Both the position numbers and the translations under genes were made by a program. Below, piece after piece: positions 37,699 to 53,040 of a stretch of DNA of 64,000 bases (its first letter is position 1; each line of letters opens with the position of its first letter). The DNA is from Psychrobacter sp. JB385. GTDB taxonomy: Bacteria > Pseudomonadota > Gammaproteobacteria > Pseudomonadales > Moraxellaceae. Where the stretch lies: the NCBI RefSeq assembly GCF_900163785.1, contig NZ_FUKN01000001.1, positions 248,001-312,000 on the forward strand, in the 5' to 3' direction. The notes under the pieces are model-generated. The model saw only the letters and a program-made list of their open reading frames with translations, was not told the origin of the DNA and searched no databases.

Positions 37699-38487
37699 TC
37701 AAAACCCCCAGTGCTGTATGCGCAGTAATACCAGCGCCATCACGATGCCAACGCACGCTGACAAGGTTAGCATATAGGTAAACACCGCACGACCAATACC
37801 AATATTGACATAGCCTTTTAAAATATCTGAGAAAGAGTTGATCAAAGGAAAGCTCGGTATCAGTAGCAATACGCTAGAAGCCACGGCAATGTCAGCATTA
37901 TTGCCAATATCAAAATAATAGGTCGTCGCGCCAATGAGCGAGGCGATAAAAGCGGTCACAATGACGGTGATAAAGGGGTTAAAGTGGTGTTTGGCCAGAT
38001 AGATACGGGTGAACATCGCCACCATACCCGCTATAAAGGTCACCGCCGTAATCGACCAACTACCGCCATTTAAATAAGCAAACGCGGCACAAGAGGCGCC
38101 AACAAAGATGCTCACCAGCCACGTTGGATACACAGTTTTATCCAACTCATCAAACGCAAGGGTCGTGCGGTCAATCAAGTCGGTATTATCTACGGTGGCT
38201 TCGGTTTTATTGATGATTTGCTGGATTTGCACCAATAAATTTACATTTATGCTTTGGTTGATCGTGTCTCTGGTGGTAGTGATACAACGTTCATCACAGA
38301 TGGTGGTCAGGGTAATGGCGTTGAAGTTCAGCGAACATTCGACGCTATTCATACCCAAGGCAAGCCCCAAGCGTTTGGATAAGTCCACCACCACGGCAGA
38401 CTCAGCGCCATACTGCATGAGGAGTAAGCCGCAGCGTACGCATAGTCGAGTAATGCGCTGCTGCTTGACGTAGCTGATAGAGGTCAT
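37699..38487 (-). CDS. Threonine/serine exporter family protein, large subunit (ThrE1-like, DUF1212)
   Basis: About 262 residues from the ATG at 38487; the frame from 38568 would overlap the divergent DUF503 unit. The N-terminal DUF1212 soluble region contains the YGAESAVVVDLSKRLGLALG segment, followed by about five helices. With its small partner it makes up the complete ThrE-type exporter. Bacterial ThrE proteins export threonine and serine; the substrate here is inferred. Confidence 0.85.
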   Translation of the reverse strand: MTSISYVKQQRITRLCVRCGLLLMQYGAESAVVVDLSKRLGLALGMNSVECSLNFNAITLTTICDERCITTTRDTINQSINVNLLVQIQQIINKTEATVDNTDLIDRTTLAFDELDKTVYPTWLVSIFVGASCAAFAYLNGGSWSITAVTFIAGMVAMFTRIYLAKHHFNPFITVIVTAFIASLIGATTYYFDIGNNADIAVASSVLLLIPSFPLINSFSDILKGYVNIGIGRAVFTYMLTLSACVGIVMALVLLRIQHWGF

Positions 38488-38621
38488 GGGTGAGATACGC
38501 AAATTGGTTGGCGATTGATACGCTATTATAAAGGGTATGCATGCTGACGCGCAGACAATATCAGACATTACTGAATATTATATTGGCTGCTATTATAAGC
38601 TTTTTTGGTAAGGAGCTTAAA

Positions 38622-38903
38622 ATGCATATCGCTATTTTGACATTGACGTTTTCATTGCCCGGCTGTGGCTCACTAAAAGAAAAGCGCCAACGTATGGGCG
38701 GCTTGCATGCGCGCTTTGGCAATACGCCAAGCGTCGCCGTCTGTGAAAGCGGCGGCCGCGCGCGCCATGACGCCAGCGAATGGACGTTTGTGATCGTCGG
38801 ATTGTCCAAACGTGAGGTTGAGTCGCAGTGTAGTCAAATTGAAGAGAAGCTAGAACGGATAGTGGATGCGCGGGTGATGAATGTGGAGAGGGAGTTTATT
38901 TAG
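38622..38903 (+). CDS. DUF503 family protein (YlxP-like)
   Basis: 93 residues, MHIAILTLTFSLPGCGSLKEKRQRM at the N-terminus, which is the DUF503 signature (SLKEKR). TAAGGAG sits just before the ATG at 38622, so the longer frame from 38541 is rejected. Family members are small ferredoxin-like proteins, often beside infB or rbfA, with poorly known function. A 24-bp stretch inside its 3' half (38816-38839) recurs at 42753 (see the repeat entry). Confidence 0.85.
   Translation: MHIAILTLTFSLPGCGSLKEKRQRMGGLHARFGNTPSVAVCESGGRARHDASEWTFVIVGLSKREVESQCSQIEEKLERIVDARVMNVEREFI
38816..38839 (+). repeat. 24-bp direct repeat, copy 1
   Basis: Lies in the 3' half of the DUF503 gene and matches 42753-42776 at 23 of 24 positions in the same orientation. 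The pair brackets a 3.9-kb AT-rich accessory block. A chance match this long within 64 kb is very unlikely. Confidence 0.7.
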
Positions 38904-42062: not shown

Positions 42063-42530
42063 TTATCTCCTCGTTAATTGAGAGAGTTGACCATGCCTCT
42101 TATCTTTTTTGAGTTTGGACTCGAAATGGTAATACCAGTTCCACATAAATTTGGGTAAAAATCCGCTTTCATCTCTAACCTTATTCATCATAATAAATAT
42201 TCTAACTTTGGCTTCATCACAAATATACAGCGGTGATCTGGTTCTTATAGCAACTAAGTCTCTTAAAATGACTGTGTAATCGGTTCCAAATGATTGAAAG
42301 TAAAATGATAATATCTCATTATCTTGATCAGACAAATGTCCTTTATAAAAAGTATACTTTCCAGCGTAAAGGAGGTCTTCGTTTGCAACATATAAACCCG
42401 CAAGCTTCTCACAGATGAAAGGATGACCGTAATATAGTCCCATATATCCTTGAAGCCTATTAATGGCTGTATCAATATTATTGTCACAAATAATTTTGCT
42501 AATACGATCTCTCATTGCGATTTCATTCAT
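42063..42530 (-). CDS. Unknown protein, possibly DUF6584-like
   Basis: 155 residues, soluble and helical, starting MNEIAMRDRISKIIC. The repeated A-x-x-x-L, AGKYTFYKGHLSDQDNEI pattern resembles TPR-like or DUF6584-type proteins. The assignment is uncertain. It has no operon partner. The AT-rich composition fits the surrounding accessory block. Confidence 0.5.
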   Translation of the reverse strand: MNEIAMRDRISKIICDNNIDTAINRLQGYMGLYYGHPFICEKLAGLYVANEDLLYAGKYTFYKGHLSDQDNEILSFYFQSFGTDYTVILRDLVAIRTRSPLYICDEAKVRIFIMMNKVRDESGFLPKFMWNWYYHFESKLKKDKRHGQLSQLTRR

Positions 42531-42616: not shown

Positions 42617-42814
42617 ATGAGCGAAAAAAGATTTAAGGAAAACGAAGAAAATAGGCTGTCTATTAGTACGCCTACCAATGGTGATTCCACACTGGTGTAT
42701 TGTCCGAAATGTCGATCTAAAGCTGTTATTACCTTACACAATGATGAGGCTCGGTTGAGTTGCAGTGTAGTCAAATCTATATTGTTAATTTTGATTAACA
42801 AAATTTTTTACTAA
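42617..42814 (+). pseudogene. Truncated zinc-ribbon ORF
   Basis: 65 codons. The N-terminal part (MSEKRFKENEENRLS) and CPKCRSKAVITLHNDEARLSC look like the first half of a zinc-ribbon protein. The second CxxC is missing: at residue 50 the frame runs into unrelated sequence (VVKSILLILINKIF). The junction coincides with the second copy of the 24-bp repeat (42753-42776). It is best read as a gene broken by recombination. Confidence 0.5.
42753..42776 (+). repeat. 24-bp direct repeat, copy 2
   Basis: Same orientation as copy 1 (38816-38839) with one mismatch. In another frame it still reads V-E-L-Q-C-S-Q-I, matching the DUF503 reading VESQCSQI, so it may be a displaced piece of that gene. It lies where the zinc-ribbon ORF is broken. 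Confidence 0.7.
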
Positions 42815-42915: not shown

Positions 42916-44745
42916 TCAAAGATTCCGGAGGTTGTCGGTATCATTCAGCCATATTTTTATGGGGGCTACTAAATGAGATGAGCTTTCCTCTATACTTTCT
43001 TGTAATATTTCTACTACCAATTGCCTTATTTCATCTTTTCTCTCAGCAAGTAGTGGGTGAGATATAATAGATTTGATGAAAGGTTTACGATACCTATGAT
43101 TATTATCGATATTTAACCAAATAACTTTTTCTAATATGGATTTATCAATTGATAGTAGAGTTGTTTTATCATCATCATTCCAACCGCCACGTTCATAATG
43201 TCGTAAAAATATTTCAGCAATAGTATCAAAGCTAACATTATTAGTACGATGATTGTTTATGGCTTCGGCAGTAAAATCATAAAAGCGATCGTAAGGCTCT
43301 TTACCAAATGAATACCAGTCATCAATAGATAGCTGTGATTTAGAAGCACTTATTTTGCCCTGAATAAATAGTTTAATATGGCTTTCCAGTCGATCAGATA
43401 GATCAGATTTATTAGAAGCTTTAAGTACATCACAGTAGAAACTCAAATTGTTTAAATCTTCTACTTCAAATCTACTACAAGCCATGTAATAAAGCTCCTC
43501 TGGGAATTTAGGGTTTATTCTAAAGTCGGGATAATCATCCATTAACTGCTTATGTAGTGTATTAATTTTTGAATTATTATTTTCAATATCATCTTTTTTT
43601 GCAACTTTTGCAGTGAGCTCTGAATTAAACTCTAGGTCTCTTAATAATGAAGTTATGATCCTCTCTCTTTCTGAAATAATGAAGTTATTATAGAAAGGCT
43701 TCAGCGTTTCTTTAATTGATTGAGACTTTCTTGCTTGATTTAAAGATAATTGGTCAATACTATCTGACAAATCCTCATGCGACATTTCTGCAACAGCGAA
43801 CTCATCAGAATGAATAATATTATTTTCATCAAAAATTTTGACAAAAATGTCAAAGCTTGTATAACCATTCTTATCCAAGAAATAGGGCATATCATGTGCA
43901 AGCATAATAATAAGAAGTGACTCAAGCACCTTTTCTTTGGTTGCAAAGGATAAATTATGTTCTGGTCTAGTAGTAATAATTAAGAACATTTTTTGAACAC
44001 GTTTATAGAATCGTATGTTTTTAACTTGTAGTTCTTGATAAAACTTCTTATATATTGGGAAAAGCTGCTCATCATCAATGAGTTTTTGAATGATATTCAA
44101 AGACTCATTTAAAATTAATACTTCATCAAAAACTTTTTCTTTGTGTTTGTCAAAATAATTTCTATCTTCTGATTCTTCATCATGTAATATTACCACAACT
44201 TGGCACTTACGCTCATTTTTAAGGTAATTTACTAAGCCCATAACTTCTGACATAGGTAAGCTGTCAGATTTTCTCTCAATATCATCTAAGCAAACCAAAG
44301 TATTTTTAAGATGAGACATTATTATGTTAGTAACAAGCTTATTACTAATATTCATTCCAAAACGCATATCGCCATTGGAACCACTCGTACTGCCCCCACC
44401 TATGAAACCAAGAAATTTTTTAGCATATTTTGAAACGTCGACATTTAGAGCTGAGTTATCAATAGCAGATGTTTGTACTTCCATAGCTATCGCTAACTTC
44501 AAACTGTCCAAAGAGTCTAGACCAAATAACGATATATAAGCATATCTCTTAGCGATAAAATCTTCTTCAATATTTTCGAAATTTTTTTTCTTCTGATTTA
44601 TAAAATTATTTTTATTGTCTTCGTAAAATTCTTCCCAAAGACGTGTTTTACCAACTCCCCATTCACCAGATAATACTAGTGCAAGAGGGATATTATTTCT
44701 AATTGTCTCTAAAAGCTTTTCTTTAATATTTGCTACATTTGCCAT
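42916..44745 (-). CDS. KAP-like P-loop NTPase
   Basis: 609 residues, AT-rich codon use. Walker A GEWGVGKT at residues 27-34, followed by the family's ISLFGLDSLDSLKLAI segment (about 71-86). Walker B LVCLDDIER (D154, D155), like the DD-x-[DE]-R of KAP ATPases. The C-terminal ~400 residues are helical, with no recognised nuclease, membrane or sensor motif. KAP members include phage-exclusion protein PifA. No partner gene stands next to it. The start ATG at 44745 lies beside an AGGCGATG sequence. A defence role is inference. Confidence 0.75.
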   Translation of the reverse strand: MANVANIKEKLLETIRNNIPLALVLSGEWGVGKTRLWEEFYEDNKNNFINQKKKNFENIEEDFIAKRYAYISLFGLDSLDSLKLAIAMEVQTSAIDNSALNVDVSKYAKKFLGFIGGGSTSGSNGDMRFGMNISNKLVTNIIMSHLKNTLVCLDDIERKSDSLPMSEVMGLVNYLKNERKCQVVVILHDEESEDRNYFDKHKEKVFDEVLILNESLNIIQKLIDDEQLFPIYKKFYQELQVKNIRFYKRVQKMFLIITTRPEHNLSFATKEKVLESLLIIMLAHDMPYFLDKNGYTSFDIFVKIFDENNIIHSDEFAVAEMSHEDLSDSIDQLSLNQARKSQSIKETLKPFYNNFIISERERIITSLLRDLEFNSELTAKVAKKDDIENNNSKINTLHKQLMDDYPDFRINPKFPEELYYMACSRFEVEDLNNLSFYCDVLKASNKSDLSDRLESHIKLFIQGKISASKSQLSIDDWYSFGKEPYDRFYDFTAEAINNHRTNNVSFDTIAEIFLRHYERGGWNDDDKTTLLSIDKSILEKVIWLNIDNNHRYRKPFIKSIISHPLLAERKDEIRQLVVEILQESIEESSSHLVAPIKIWLNDTDNLRNL

Positions 44746-44817
44746 CGTTCATCGCCTTACAGATGTTCTTAGAGTAAAAATTATATTAACACTAAAATCA
44801 AACCCCTAAATAACAAA

Positions 44818-44847
44818 AAAAGGCCACTCCCGAAAGAGTAGCCTTTT
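44818..44847 (-). terminator. Terminator of uvrA
   Basis: On the minus strand a 12-bp stem (one G-T wobble) with a TTTCGG loop is followed by a T-run (RNA view). It lies 23 bp after the uvrA stop. Confidence 0.9.
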
Positions 44848-44869: not shown

Positions 44870-47776
44870 TTAGCTGACGTCCTTCAACCCTTGCTCCAGC
44901 ATTGGCTTTAAGAACTCACCCGTATATGAGCCTTTCACTTCTGCCACTTCCTCAGGTGTGCCTTCAGCGATGATGAGTCCGCCACCTTTACCGCCTTCAG
45001 GGCCAAGATCAATCACCCAATCTGCCGTTTTGATGACATCGAGGTTATGCTCGATGACCACGATGGTATTGCCCTTATCGCGTAGGGTATGCAGGATATG
45101 CAGCAGCTTATAGATATCATGGAAGTGCAAGCCGGTGGTTGGCTCATCTAAGATATAGAGCGTCTGTCCCGTATCGCGCTTGGCAAGCTCACGTGCCAGT
45201 TTGACCCGCTGCGCTTCACCGCCAGAGAGCGTGGGTGCTGACTGACCCAAACGAATATAACCAAGACCGACATCCATCAACGCCTGCAGACGACGATAGA
45301 TCGCAGGTATCGCTGAGAAGAACTCGACCGCATCTTCCACGGTCATCTCTAACACTTCTGCGATGCTTTTGCCCTTATAGTGGATCTCAAGCGTCTCACG
45401 GTTATAGCGTTTGCCTTCACAGGTATCGCATGGCACATACATATCTGGTAAGAAATGCATTTCAACCTTGATCAGACCATCACCTTGGCACATCTCACAG
45501 CGACCGCCTTTGACATTGAAGCTAAAGCGACCGGGCTTGTAGCCACGAGCGCGCGCTTCTTGCGTCTGGGCAAACATCTCACGCACAGGGGTAAATACGC
45601 CTGTATACGTCGCTGGGTTTGAGCGCGGCGTACGACCGATGGGGCTTTGATCGATATCGACCATTTTGTCCAAATGCTCAAGACCGCTGATGCTTTCATG
45701 CTTGTCTGCGATAAGCGTCGACGCATTGTTTAACTGCGTCGCTGCCAATGGCATAAGCGTACGGTTAATCAGGGTCGATTTACCTGAACCGGAGACACCC
45801 GTCACACAAGTCATGACACCAACGGGGATGGTCAAATCGACATCATGCAAGTTATTGCCTGATGCGCCTTTTAGCTCGATGGTCATTGGTATTTTTTTGG
45901 CTTTGGCCTTACCTTTGACTTCGACGTCCATCGTTTTGGCTTTATGACGAACAGCTGGAATCTCGATGCGCTTTTTGCCAGACATGTATTGTCCAGTGAG
46001 CGATTCTTTATTTGCCATGATGTCATCGACCGTACCTTGAGCGATCACATGACCACCGTGTACGCCTGCGCCGATACCGATGTCGATCACGTGATCGGCT
46101 TGGCGAATAGCATCTTCGTCATGCTCAACAACCAGTACGGTATTGCCCAGATCACGTAAGCGTGTGAGGGTCTTTAGCAGGCGATCATTGTCACGTTGAT
46201 GTAGACCGATGGATGGTTCATCAAGTACATACATGACACCCATGAGACCTGCACCGATTTGGCTCGCAAGTCTAATACGCTGTGCTTCACCGCCCGATAG
46301 CGTTTCGGCAGAGCGTGCTAAGGTGAGATAATCCAGACCAACGCTCACGAGGAAGTTTAAACGCTCGTTAATCTCTTTAAAGATTTTTTCTGCGACTTCG
46401 CCTTTGTGACCACCAATTTTTAGCGTTTTATAATAGTCCGCAGAGTCGCCAATAGAGAGCTTAACGATATCAGCGATGGTTTGGTCATCGACACGCACAT
46501 TGCGTGAAATCTCGTTTAAACGCGCACCATCACAGACATTACAGGTGGTATCAGCCAGATACTTGGCCAGTTCATCACGCACAAGGTTACTTTGCGTTTT
46601 AGCATAACGACGCTCTAGATAAGGAAGCACGCCTTCGAACGGCACGGTCTTATTCGTCTTACGACCGCGCTCATCGGTAAAGTTAAAGGTCAGCTTTTCT
46701 TTGCCAGAGCCATGCATGATGATGTCTTGATGCTTTTTGCTGAGGTCTTGCCATGGCATATCCATATCGATTTTGAAATGCTGACAGACCGTGCTCAGCA
46801 AACCAAAATAATAGGCATGACGCTTGTCCCAACCATTGATTGCACCTTGGTTAAGTGACTTTTCATGGTGAGTGATGAGCTTTTCAGCCGCGAAGTATTG
46901 ACGTTTACCAAGACCATCACAGCTTGGACACGCACCGTATGGGTTGTTAAAACTGAACATACGTGGTTCAAGCTCAGGTACCGCACGATCACAGATAGGG
47001 CATGAATGCTTGGCTGACATGACTTGATTGTCGTCACCGCCTTCTTTTGGATTACCATCCATAAAGTGTAGCGTGACCAGTCCTTGACCCAAACGCAGCG
47101 CCGTCTCTAAGCTCTCCGCGACACGGTTGCCCAAGTCATCACGGACTTTAAAGCGATCGACCACCACTTCGATGGTGTGTTTTTTCTTTTTATCAAGGGT
47201 CGGTAGCTCATCGGTGTCATAGACATCACCATCGACGCGCACACGCACAAAGCCTTGTCCAATCAGCTGTTCAAGTAACACGGTATGCTCACCTTTACGC
47301 TCGCGAATCACGGGTGCCAAGATCATAATCTTGGTGTCATCTGGTAGCGCCATGACTTGATCGACCATCTCGGTGACCGACTGCGCGACCATCGGCTCGC
47401 CGTGCTCAGGGCAGTAGGGCGTACCAATACGGGCGTATAGTAGACGCAGATAGTCGTAAATCTCGGTAATTGTACCGACGGTCGAGCGTGGGTTATGGTT
47501 GGTCGATTTTTGCTCAATAGCGATTGCAGGAGATAACCCTTCGATACTATCGACCTCAGGCTTTTCCATTTGCGAGAGGAATTGGCGCGCATAAGCGGAC
47601 AAACTCTCGACATAACGACGTTGCCCTTCAGCATAAAGCGTATCAAATGCTAGTGAAGATTTGCCTGAACCAGATAGGCCAGTGATTACTACAAATTTGT
47701 CGCGAGGAATGTCTAAGTCGATATTTTTTAGATTGTGGGTGCGTGCACCACGTATTGCGATATGGTCATGTGCCAT
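44870..47776 (-). CDS. uvrA: Excinuclease ABC subunit A
   Basis: 968-residue DNA-damage sensor of nucleotide excision repair; forms UvrA2 and loads UvrB. First Walker A GLSGSGKS at residues 33-40, second GVSGSGKST near 660. Zinc-binding CxxC pairs occur in [14 protein letters not shown] and [12 protein letters not shown], then CEMCQGDG and CDTCEGKRY. Two ABC signatures LSGGEAQR are present. Full length. No SOS box was identified by eye upstream, and Moraxellaceae often lack LexA. Confidence 0.98.
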
Positions 47777-49675: not shown

Positions 49676-50109
49676 TATGCTATATAGGCAATTTATCTTA
49701 TGGGCAATACATTACATTGGGACTATATATTAAATCTGCCAGTAATAAAGATGTCATGCTCAATCGCTCAGTCATGAAAAAATTTGGCATAGAGTTGGCA
49801 GTGTGACTCTAAGTATGCATCGCAAGAATCCTGACACAAAATAACGTAGCCATTGAGATTCTACTTAAAAATGATAAAGGTTGATGGTGTTCATTAATCG
49901 CTTAAAATGGCAAAATAGTGACACTCCTATTTTTTAGCCTTTAAATATAATGATACTTGTGTCTAAGCGACATAGAATGTCGTCTTCAGCTGACAGACTG
50001 TAGATATTTGAACAAAAATTGGTTAAAGTAATGTCATATCATTAATAGGGTTTGCGGATTCTATTAAATAATATTTGAGTAAATTATTCATAAATAAAAG
50101 GACGGTATC
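49676..50109. other. Intergenic region before ssb
   Basis: About 430 bp, AT-rich, with no ORF, clear terminator or RNA recognised. It must hold the ssb promoter. Confidence 0.4.
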
Positions 50110-50724
50110 ATGCGCGGAGTTAATAAAGTTATCATCATCGGTAACCTTGGAGCAGATCCTGAGGCACGTCAATTTAATAATGGCGGTAGCGTGACCAATA
50201 TCTCGGTTGCAACGTCAGAGCAATGGACAGACAAACAAAGTGGCGAAAAAAGAGAAGCGACAGAATGGCATCGCATCTCACTGTTTAATCGTTTAGGCGA
50301 AATCGCCGCACAGTATTTGCGTAAAGGCAGTAAAGTCTATATCGAAGGCAGTTTGCGTACCCGTAAATACCAAGATCAAAACGGCCAAGATCGTTATATT
50401 ACCGAAATTCGTGCTGAGCAAATGCAGATGTTAGACGGTCAAAGTGGCGGTCAAGACAATAGCAATTTCGGTGGTCAGAGCTCAAATGGCTATGGAAACC
50501 AAGGCGGTCAAAGCAACCAAAACAGCTTTGGTCAACAAGCCAATAATCAGCAAGGCGGCTACAATCAAGCGGTTGGTATGGGTCAAGGTGGACAAAATAA
50601 CTTTAATAACCAAAATGCGCCAGCTCAGCAAAACCAGTTTAACCAACCAGCTCAGCAGCGTCCTGCACAGTCGAAGCCTACAGCGATGCCAGATGGTCCT
50701 GTAGATGACGATATTCCGTTCTGA
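50110..50724 (+). CDS. ssb: Single-stranded DNA-binding protein
   Basis: 204 residues. N-terminal OB fold (residues 1-110) with [19 protein letters not shown] and [17 protein letters not shown] long Gln/Gly/Asn-rich linker follows, then the conserved acidic tip DDDIPF that binds repair and replication partners. A GGACGG ribosome-binding site precedes the ATG. Confidence 0.97.
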
Positions 50725-50760
50725 TGATGATAAGAGATAGAATGTAAAATATATGTTCTA

Positions 50761-50790
50761 GAAAACCCGCCACTAGCGGGTTTTCTTTTA
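50761..50790 (+). terminator. Intrinsic terminator of ssb
   Basis: GAAAACCCGC pairs with GCGGGTTTTC around a CACTA loop and is followed by a T-rich run. Confidence 0.9.
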
Positions 50791-50994
50791 TCTATTTAGA
50801 GAGAATAAGACTCTGCTATTGCAGAGTTTTTTAATGCCTAATAATAAACAATACAAAAAGACTTATCTTTAAAAGAACATTAAAAGAAGTAAATTTATGT
50901 ATTTATTAAAGCGACTAATTTTTAAGACATTTGTTTAATTTAATATGATTGACTATCGTTTACATAATATACGTAATTAATATTCATAAAATGT

Positions 50995-51234
50995 ATGACA
51001 GTATCAAAAGATAGAAAAGTATTTTATATTATAAAAATGATAAATATTGCATCATTATTTTTAATAAATTTTGTCTTGAAATTTGTTAAAGATACCTTTC
51101 ATACGCTATATCAACCGTCTATTCCATTGGTTTTGATTAATACTAGTAGTTTATTAAAAGTGGTTGTTATAATCCTTATAAATGAAGATATTAGAAAACA
51201 TACAGACAGTTATTTTTCTAAAAATATTTTTTAG
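50995..51234 (+). CDS. Possible AT-rich small membrane protein
   Basis: 79 codons in very AT-rich DNA. Hydrophobic segments (about 12-30 and 42-62) with lysine-rich ends, no recognised family and no clear ribosome-binding site. It may be chance. Confidence 0.3.
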   Translation: MTVSKDRKVFYIIKMINIASLFLINFVLKFVKDTFHTLYQPSIPLVLINTSSLLKVVVIILINEDIRKHTDSYFSKNIF

Positions 51235-51346
51235 GATTAATTAGAATACACGGCTTTACTGTTTACTGCTAGAAACGTAAAAATTATTGGGCGAGAGGTT
51301 TACGATAAAGCGATACTCTCTTTATCGTTATAGGTAGGGATGAGGT

Positions 51347-51934
51347 ATGAATAGTCATGATGTGTTTGTGAAGACGGACTTGGGAAGAGATGAAATAAAA
51401 TCTCAAGGTATGGGAACAGTACCGCGAGAAGCAAGAACATTACTCATTATGATTGATGGTAAACGAGATTATCAAAGCTACCTCGATGCACTTGATCAAC
51501 GCAAGATGTTTGCAGACTTTGGAGGTATAACTTCGTTACTTGAGCTGCTATTAACGCTTGAATATATTGAGATAGTCAGTGCCAATAGCATATCAATAAC
51601 TACTCAAGCTCAATCAACAAACCTATCTTCTGATATGAAAACCGAGTCTGCCATTGACCGTACTTTCAACCATAAACCTCCCAAACGAATGAAAGCCATT
51701 GGCAGTATTTTTAAAACCAAATTATCTGCCGCCAGATATGAAAACATAAAATCAGATTTGGCGGTTTATATAGAAAAAAATGCTTCTGCAGCAGAGGCTT
51801 GGGGCTATCTACTCTTGCTAGAGCAATGTGTCAATAACTCGCAACTGCTGATTTTAGCACGAGAAATACAACGTAAAAACCATGGCGATCTATCGCTTGG
51901 CATGACCGATTTTATAGAGCGTATTGAGCAATGA
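51347..51934 (+). CDS. Unknown protein with N-terminal helical domain
   Basis: 195 residues. The first ~85 residues, with KTDLGRDEIKSQ and ARTLLIMIDGKRDYQSYLDAL then LLELLLTLEYIEIV, resemble short winged-helix-like domains found in uncharacterised proteobacterial proteins. The C-terminal half is helical. A GGGATGAGG sequence precedes the ATG. No assigned function. Confidence 0.6.
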   Translation: MNSHDVFVKTDLGRDEIKSQGMGTVPREARTLLIMIDGKRDYQSYLDALDQRKMFADFGGITSLLELLLTLEYIEIVSANSISITTQAQSTNLSSDMKTESAIDRTFNHKPPKRMKAIGSIFKTKLSAARYENIKSDLAVYIEKNASAAEAWGYLLLLEQCVNNSQLLILAREIQRKNHGDLSLGMTDFIERIEQ

Positions 51935-52397
51935 TATAAGATTTGTTTCAATCTCAGCGCCACAGTATATTTAGCAAATTTCATGATAACCATAAGCGGC
52001 CAAAAGGCACTTTATAATCAAAAATGAGAGTTGCTATCCTTGGTTTAATTAAGGTTTTTTTTACAGATTTATGTTTATTTATAAGAAAATATTATTTATA
52101 CGTAGAGAAATATTTTGATTACCAACTATCATTTATAAAGTATATTTAATTGACTTATGTTCGCTTTTTTTTATTTTTTATAATATGACAATGATAGCTG
52201 TCTATTGATTTATCATAATATTTTGTTTATATTGACGAGCATTATAAAAATGATAACTAATAATTTTTTTATATATTTAATATTGTAGTGGTTTATTCAT
52301 TCTTTTATAAATGAGTGAATAATTATTTTTCAGCGCTTAATGGGTATTAATATATCTATTAAGTTGATCTTTATTTTATCTTACAATTGGATTTATT
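51935..52397. other. Very AT-rich leader region of the H-NS-family gene
   Basis: About 460 bp with long A/T runs, no ORF recognised. It lies directly before the H-NS-family gene and resembles the sort of DNA that such proteins bind, so autoregulation is possible. Confidence 0.5.
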
Positions 52398-52721
52398 ATG
52401 AGCAAGAATAACGTAATCGATTTAGACAACCTAAACGTAGATGAACTACGCGCCATCACTGAAAACGCTCAGCAACTTATTGCTAAGAAGCAACACCAGC
52501 GTTTGTATGATGCTTATATGCAGTTCGAGAAAATTTCAGAAGACAGTAATGCGACTATCGAAGAGATTTTGAAAGCTGGCGAAAAACTAGAGAAAAAACG
52601 CAGTATCAAATATCGTAACGCAGATAATAACGAAGAAACGTGGACAGGACGTGGCCGTAAGCCAACTTGGTTGGTTGAAGCGTTAACAGCAGGTCGTGAC
52701 CTTGAAGATTTTGCAGTGTAA
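52398..52721 (+). CDS. H-NS family nucleoid-associated protein
   Basis: 107 residues. N-terminal coiled-coil oligomerisation part (about 1-70), then the C-terminal DNA-binding motif TWTGRGRKPTWLVEAL typical of H-NS/StpA-type proteins, which binds AT-rich DNA. It sits in the most AT-rich part of the window. It may silence AT-rich accessory DNA such as that between 38.9 and 44.8 kb. Confidence 0.9.
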   Translation: MSKNNVIDLDNLNVDELRAITENAQQLIAKKQHQRLYDAYMQFEKISEDSNATIEEILKAGEKLEKKRSIKYRNADNNEETWTGRGRKPTWLVEALTAGRDLEDFAV

Positions 52722-52986
52722 TAGACAGTATTTATGTTATCCCTTAGATGACCATCTGTTTAATCCTAAATAAAAAATGTATAGCAATGATAGTGTACTG
52801 CCAACCATATATGTTCGTAGGCTCTGTCTGTTAGTGCACGGCAAGCTAGAAAATATGATGTCGGCAGCCCTGTATTGCTTTTATATTGGATTAACTATAG
52901 ATGACGCTCTTTATGAAATTGATTGACTCAATATATGAGTGACCAATAAACGTTATAGTACTAAGTGATAGTGTTTATAGCAGACG

Positions 52987-53040
52987 AAGCCAGTATTTTT
53001 ATTGCCAGTATTTTGGCAAAAAAGATACTGGCTTTTTTTC
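52987..53040 (+). terminator. Composite hairpin terminator upstream of gspN
   Basis: AAGCCAGTAT (52987-52996) pairs with ATACTGGCTT (53025-53034), enclosing a smaller TTGCC/GGCAA hairpin, and ends in seven T residues. It ends the H-NS-family or an unseen transcript. The remaining 52722-53106 contains no gene I recognise. Confidence 0.75.

Follow-up and report, generated by a model that had tools for sequence, protein, structure and literature searches.

Behind the 3' end of uvrA, Psychrobacter sp. JB385 carries a single-gene unit for a KAP-like P-loop NTPase, which is probably (at roughly 0.7) a stand-alone anti-phage NTPase belonging to a membrane-less branch of the KAP family. The best reading of the data is that of an ATP-switched receptor that stays at one hotspot and has its specificity reshuffled there, the case for defence being drawn from genomic context. 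The gene lies in a stretch of 64,000 nucleotides of the JB385 genome, here termed the window, and the features of the window that matter to the argument are these:

37699..38568, minus strand: ThrE-type exporter gene (Pfam, 176.7 bits), the right slot boundary where DUF503 is absent
38541..38903, plus strand: DUF503-like gene (conserved marker; presumably DUF503), the right slot boundary in most genomes read
42063..42530, minus strand: DUF6584 gene, slot cargo (Pfam, 27.8 bits; cut-off 27)
42617..42814, plus strand: probable remnant of a 153-157-aa slot gene, truncated after its first 49 residues (identity to slot ORFs)
42916..44745, minus strand: KAP-like P-loop NTPase gene, a single-gene unit (ORF, Pfam PF07693, PADLOC, PHROG, model)
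44131..44745, minus strand: module 1, RecA/AAA+-like NTPase core, residues 1 to about 205, boundary approximate (invariant residues, model, MaxChi)
43591..44130, minus strand: module 2, helical lid and middle region, residues about 206-385, boundaries approximate (DNA identity, model)
42919..43590, minus strand: module 3, all-helical C-terminal region and probable sensor, residues about 386-609, boundary approximate (model, identity profiles)
44746..44809, minus strand: conserved 64-nt KAP leader, with an AT-rich promoter-like stretch and an AAGG ribosome-binding-like site (putative function)
44817..44846, minus strand: intrinsic-terminator-like hairpin and T run behind uvrA, the left slot boundary (sequence)
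44870..47776, minus strand: uvrA, the core gene bounding the slot (Pfam; in 105/105 genomes)

The KAP gene starts with ATG and encodes 609 aa, in which GEWGVGKT (Walker A), ISLFGL and DDIER (Walker B) are all intact, exactly as the preliminary description had it. The AT-richness reported there is likewise real, with a G+C content of 0.31-0.34 in the three 1-kb steps at 42-45 kb vs 0.38-0.51 across most of the window. A second low-G+C stretch (0.31-0.38) occupies positions 50001-53000 and starts at a single-strand-binding protein gene. The same description placed the gene beside broken neighbours, and this holds for one of the two: the 65-aa ORF at 42617-42814, with 71-76% identity over 49-51 aa to the starts of ORFs in loci L045, L089, L093, L036 and L099, is probably a truncated copy of a slot gene, but the DUF6584 gene, at 155 aa, has the full length of its slot homologues (155-157 aa in L042, L045 and L075). 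At the family level, Pfam KAP_NTPase (PF07693) matches residues 6-187 at 21.8 bits, a marginal pass of the gathering score of 20, and the PADLOC candidate PDC-S49 matches at 5.3e-18 over the NTPase part only (residues 19-216), whereas PHROG 4740 covers nearly the full protein (residues 6-589) at 4.9e-33. The PDC-S49 and PHROG 4740 entries both carry no function annotation, and a search of a limited literature collection returned nothing on PDC-S49. NCBIfam offered no family up to an E value of 0.1, and no STAND Pfam model scored above its cut-off. A single-sequence scan of the genome contigs yielded no relative, and a profile scan of them yielded 85, of which 80 were kept.

A role of KAP NTPases in phage defence has long been suspected, and to our knowledge few of their mechanisms have been worked out. 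The title of the founding KAP paper reportedly names transmembrane segments inserted in the NTPase domain, but such segments are not universal among these NTPases. The window protein shares the Walker A and the DD-x-E-R Walker B with PF07693 and matches it in its NTPase part only; no membrane helix is predicted in it (highest 19-residue mean hydropathy, 1.23), and it is hence classed with the family through its NTPase domain only, as a membrane-less relative. Among 55 relatives, three reach a 19-residue mean hydropathy of at least 1.6. PifA, a KAP-type anti-phage protein, had been offered as a parallel; compared by description, the parallel is weak, since the window protein lacks a membrane segment and matches no solved NTPase of the kind in sequence. 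A KAP-type NTPase defence gene, Tmn, is described in a passage of PMC11846954 as having two transmembrane domains. The window protein has none and, on this comparison by description, a membrane mechanism is unlikely for it.

Conservation is concentrated in the NTPase. In an alignment of 55 sequences (the window protein and 54 relatives, a few being shorter ORFs), 17 residues are invariant and all fall within the first 245, namely G27, E28, W29, G30, G32, K33, T34, Y70, S72, G75, D154, E157, R158, G170, K204, N243 and R245; D155 is conserved at 90% or more. Because of these 17 residues, the gene is more than a chance ORF. An AlphaFold2 model built from the 55 sequences (pLDDT 83.8, pTM 0.71) has an alpha/beta NTPase core at the very N-terminus, beginning at residue 4 and running to about residue 215, followed by helices, with Walker A at residues 27-34 and Walker B around residues 150-158 of module 1. 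The structural matches are AAA+ proteins, with ORC/Cdc6, TnsC and MuB high in the lists, and they include the heptameric RdrA (Z 12.4, rmsd 4.6, 233 aligned) and Avs4 (Foldseek E 9.5e-4); query-length TM values are low (at most 0.29), and the matches point to a common AAA+ arrangement and give no indication of function. A viral structure library returned only similarly weak AAA+-like rows, and sequence searches of solved structures, by single protein or by profile, returned nothing useful.

In RADAR, rdrA adjoins the gene for the RdrB deaminase, whereas the window KAP, for all its similar AAA+ core, has no partner gene in the five slots that hold KAP only. Avs4 and other AAA+/STAND immune ATPases likewise have a similar core and join the NTPase to a variable helical part, and the layout and variability of the window protein appear to resemble their combination of a switch ATPase with a variable C-terminal recognition part; they differ in the N-terminal effector that precedes the NTPase of STAND/Avs proteins, for which the window protein, with Walker A at residue 27, has no counterpart. 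It had been suggested that an effector might be hidden in the C-terminal ~400 residues, and this candidate was rejected as lacking support. Modelled alone, residues 292-609 are all helical (pLDDT 84.3, pTM 0.59) and have no convincing match among solved structures, the best rows (a designed repeat protein at Foldseek E 0.01; Z 6.7, rmsd 3.4, 102 aligned) being only at the level of common helical repeats, although an absent match is no proof of a new fold. Moreover, no residue of the region reaches 90% conservation among 51 sequences. Given the lack of both a structural match and a 90%-conserved residue, the helical C-terminus looks like a variable sensor rather than a hidden enzyme. Within the 12 Psychrobacter copies, invariant C-terminal residues do occur, e.g. 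D385, N433, W543, R553 and H563, leaving room for a genus-specific function of this region.

Across the genus, the position of the gene is constant and its presence is not. UvrA is encoded in 105/105 Psychrobacter genomes and KAP homologues in 16 of them. All 16 share the strand of uvrA and follow it, ahead of the gene for the DUF503-like protein or that for the ThrE exporter. Examination of the region behind uvrA covered 96 genomes, 16 of them with KAP and 80 without, and several of the remaining nine have a split uvrA or a uvrA at a contig end. The right flank was reached in 80 loci, 64 of them KAP-less. Of these 64 complete slots, 61 contain one or more ORFs with a length of at least 150 aa. 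Such ORFs of the KAP-less slots form 66 sequence clusters, 35 of them confined to one locus; with ORFs called mechanically, some of the 66 clusters may be spurious. Homologues in conserved core, non-defence loci across the genus would have spoken against a defence role; in fact, the gene occurs in only 16 of 105 genomes and in a highly variable slot, so that its locus is not a core one despite its fixed place by a core gene. In five loci (L022, L023, L024, L025 and L030), KAP is the sole ORF of at least 60 aa kept between uvrA and DUF503, which bears out the earlier statement that it has no partner gene. Broken KAP copies occur in four of the 16 genomes: those of L034 (scanned) and L033 (by similarity) are interrupted by an insertion with DDE_Tnp_4-type pieces, that of L026 is split, and that of L031 is broken in a low-completeness assembly in which uvrA is broken too, possibly through a sequencing fault.

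The hairpin behind uvrA would separate KAP from uvrA transcription, and an operon of the two, considered for Psychrobacter, is unlikely with a terminator-like hairpin between the genes. The 64 nt upstream of the KAP start codon resemble one another across 15 compared copies, and a profile made from these 15 leaders matches 16/16 KAP loci and 1/80 KAP-less loci. The one KAP-less match, in L078 (genome G099), has an E value of 1.4e-4 and lies directly behind uvrA at oriented positions 354-404 with no ORF downstream on the same strand; it is likely to be the scar of a lost or replaced KAP copy. Between uvrA and KAP, five of the 16 loci have a short reading frame of 82-91 aa. Flanking this frame in L020, L021, L027, L028 and L032, the terminator-like hairpin of uvrA occurs a second time, and the duplicated hairpin is a possible repeat that could promote exchange.

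The same arrangement recurs in a second genus. Family-wide, a match was present in 41/348 genomes, comprising 16 Psychrobacter, 22 of one further genus and one each in three other genera. The gene order of the A. baumannii record CP040042 is the same, for which reason the further genus is taken to be Acinetobacter and is so called below. Of its 22 homologues, 21 lie on the same contig as uvrA and beside the uvrA 3' end, with match edges no more than 1.6 kb away, and the exception (G253) has KAP ~645 kb from uvrA; the homologues of the three remaining genera are on contigs other than that of uvrA, where adjacency is undecidable. Seven loci of the second genus were examined in full, and in each KAP faces uvrA and is the next gene to it; in six of the seven, a conserved gene of ~573 aa follows KAP, corresponding by place to the GGDEF gene of CP040042. 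In loci L271-L297, a second, compact variable slot is seen between uvrA and the ~573-aa gene. Among 20 KAP-less slots of this genus, six are empty, with the ~573-aa gene directly behind uvrA, five carry one and the same cluster, and the rest hold other genes; a 289-aa member of the recurrent cluster matches PDC-S32 at 2.3e-117. A limited literature search found no paper on a uvrA-linked defence hotspot in Acinetobacter, none joining a KAP P-loop with phage defence and none on a P-loop NTPase fold protein with phage; on defence hotspots with conserved flanks or in Psychrobacter, it gave a single paper, on Salmonella.

Placement beside uvrA is stricter for KAP than for other cargo. Among control cargoes, a 723-aa protein is in the slot in three of six genomes, with two copies elsewhere and one (G059) unplaceable because it is split over contig ends, and, with 105 genomes searched for each, a PD-(D/E)XK protein is in the slot in five of 10 genomes and an AbiH protein in three of 14. 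The difference (16/16 for KAP vs 11/29 placed controls) gives a Fisher p of 2.2e-5, a value that shared descent of the rows overstates. One explanation is that the NTPase is a partner or guard of UvrA, working with nucleotide excision repair or monitoring it, and therefore stays beside uvrA. The adjacency in 16/16 Psychrobacter and 21/22 Acinetobacter homologues, set against 11/29 for the other cargoes, is what such a partnership would predict, but the two genes run in the same direction in Psychrobacter and convergently in Acinetobacter, a terminator-like hairpin stands between them, and 89 of the 105 genomes with uvrA have no KAP. Likewise, UvrA was not seen in the DNA stretches examined at 69 non-Psychrobacter loci (L125, L127-L194), one of which (L128) is of the same family and has a sequence that ends near the KAP gene, and KAP diverges strongly where UvrA does not. 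A partnership with UvrA is thus very unlikely. The preferred reading of the strict linkage is recombination through shared flanks, which returns the gene to the same slot. In a tree, the Psychrobacter and Acinetobacter proteins form one group with 100/100 support, within which G253 and G290 (adjacency to uvrA not shown) and an Aggregatibacter protein also fall; with mosaic genes, any single KAP tree is approximate.

Sequence comparison between strains shows how far KAP versions have been replaced at this site. In L020, L021, L027 and L032, UvrA is 99-100% and the neighbouring transporter 97-100% identical, but KAP only 37-64%. Over the 12 intact copies, KAP identity is uncorrelated with that of UvrA (r = 0.03, Mantel p = 0.40) and with that of the transporter (r = 0.17, p = 0.22). 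Profiles of DNA identity in 50-residue windows reveal that divergence is also uneven along the gene. For L032 and L028, identity is 81-96% in windows to residue ~200 (96% at residues 126-200), drops to 48-59% in windows starting at 226-351 (48-50% at 251-325) and returns to 92-97% at 401-475 (97% at 401-450), and over the middle part where this pair drops, L032 and L023 are 83-90% identical. Similarly, L032 and L025 share 76-88% up to about residue 200 and 39-56% beyond about 226, and L028 and L030 share 77-87% over the first ~175 residues and 93-99% for most of the remainder. Pieces of the NTPase part, the middle and the C-terminus thus change relatives separately, and the gene is mosaic.

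MaxChi, which assumes even rates along the gene and was applied to triplets that are not independent, gave the smallest possible p (0.0005) in seven of eight named triplets and p = 0.10 in the eighth; in a shorter version of the test, 349 of 660 triplets were at the smallest possible p. The best breakpoints of the seven significant triplets scatter (106, 139, 201, 201, 211, 457 and 551), that of the non-significant triplet being 397, and three of them (201, 201 and 211) coincide with the point where the modelled NTPase core ends. With this scatter, a clean cut into three modules is not proven; the main basis for borders near 205 and 385 is the profiles of L032 vs L028 and L023. The three-part division used in the feature list is a working scheme, firmest at ~205.

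Relatives of the protein are found in phages and plasmids. A viral scan identified 44 contigs with a relative, and in 25 of them, many being near copies, the P2 gene A lies on one side of KAP and the portal gene on the other. In L198, L202, L213 and L233, the KAP gene adjoins the portal gene directly; PHROG matches bear out the portal gene in all four and gene A in L198, L202 and L233. In P2, the interval between these genes carries old and tin and is a hotspot of anti-phage genes, according to a section of PMC9122126. In Campylobacter CJIE4 prophages, a KAP gene lies in a variable stretch and superinfection immunity has been proposed for it; two versions are 39% identical, and pseudogenes are noted to form often in the family (PMC3995785, in the portions bearing on these prophages). 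The CJIE4-2 protein, at 592 aa, is also the product of a single gene, located in a variable stretch of a prophage where the window gene occupies a chromosomal slot, and the CJIE1/CJIE4 KAP proteins share 25.6% identity with the window protein over residues 9-225 only. The prophage ATPase treated in PMC12724215 is a different, ParA-like one. On an E. coli 110-kb plasmid (L240, NZ_CP027358.1), an NTPase relative lies near DnaB-like helicase and primase genes. Plasmid records of similar ~110-kb size with a match are common, including in Klebsiella, and one E. coli record of this sort is catalogued as a phage.

Such a distribution raises the possibility that the window gene is of prophage origin, a superinfection-exclusion or lysogeny-maintenance gene now stranded in the chromosome. 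That relatives occur in prophages, both P2-like and of Campylobacter, as well as in ~110-kb plasmid records is in keeping with this, as is the superinfection immunity proposed for the CJIE4 homologue. However, the Psychrobacter, Acinetobacter, G253, G290 and Aggregatibacter proteins stand apart from the 10 viral rows of the tree with 100/100 support, and the five KAP-only loci hold no other slot ORF, which together make a stranded prophage gene unlikely.

The company that KAP keeps in the slot is mixed. Pfam was run singly on 30 slot ORFs which, minus two transposase pieces that interrupt KAP, represent 28 cargo proteins, picked mostly by size from 92 cluster representatives of at least 120 aa; three of the 28 (L035, L105 and L114) come from loci where the right flank was not reached. 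By these single scans, seven of the 28 are of defence or conflict types: NACHT (L058), GmrSD with both domains (L037), AIPR (L097), AbiH (L072), PDDEXK_4 (L043), RelA_SpoT (L087) and PRTase-CE (L065). Here, NACHT, AIPR, PDDEXK_4, RelA_SpoT and PRTase-CE are taken by us to be defence or conflict types. The other 21 are without assignment or of other kinds, e.g. peptidase M48, oxidoreductases, Sel1 repeats, LprI, PAAR, an IS4 transposase, a radical SAM protein and glycerate kinase. Single genes without assignment are many in the slots of the L035-L114 series, e.g. those for proteins of 442, 457 and 369 aa that neither Pfam nor PADLOC matches and for a 723-aa protein whose sole feature is a SEC-C motif. 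A PADLOC tally does not tell cargo from core genes (50 families in 55 cargo proteins vs 37 families in 35 core window proteins), and it is unusable as a test of defence enrichment because the core window genes also match so many families. Among these 35 core proteins, mad3 (1.9e-104) and mad8 (5e-39) are each matched by one window protein. Run singly on 10 further slot proteins (six from Psychrobacter, four from Acinetobacter), PADLOC gave one strong match (PDC-S32), two weak ones and seven without any.

The slot behind uvrA is therefore variable and carries defence genes but other genes too; KAP lies in it between conserved genes, with defence-type genes in the same slot of other genomes. With several slot cargoes metabolic or without assignment, it is conceivable that the slot is a general-purpose one and that KAP is a regulated accessory ATPase serving stress or competition rather than defence. 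The exchange of parts, the divergence of versions far above that of neighbouring genes, the broken copies in 4/16 genomes and the P2 old/tin position of relatives all fit conflict better, and a non-defence ATPase is accordingly quite unlikely. A stand-alone anti-phage NTPase remains the preferred interpretation, and the original proposal of a stand-alone NTPase and defence candidate gains from three observations: the uvrA slot with its defence genes, the P2 old/tin locus of the relatives and the PADLOC candidate model.

As a mechanism for this preferred reading, the helical parts would recognise an infection product, upon which the NTPase would bind ATP, oligomerise and so become active, and in this assembled form would halt phage growth or the cell. 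Since no enzyme-like module is conserved, the output would most likely come from the NTPase assembly itself. Recombination of the parts could then renew specificity and leave the leader unchanged. More tentatively, and at somewhat less than even odds, the locus may be a bacterial counterpart of a polymorphic immune-receptor locus, with a fixed site, one leader and ATPase switch, and a pool of interchangeable sensor parts recombined between strains with near-identical flanks. If that were true, the parts would set phage specificity, and the natural chimeras L032, L028, L023 and L025 would allow that specificity to be decoded. In broader terms, there is a hotspot behind uvrA in two genera, most of whose cargo is still without assignment, and KAP provides a testable system within it, with its numerous natural versions at a single site, its clean ATPase residues to mutate and its chimeras that should map specificity.
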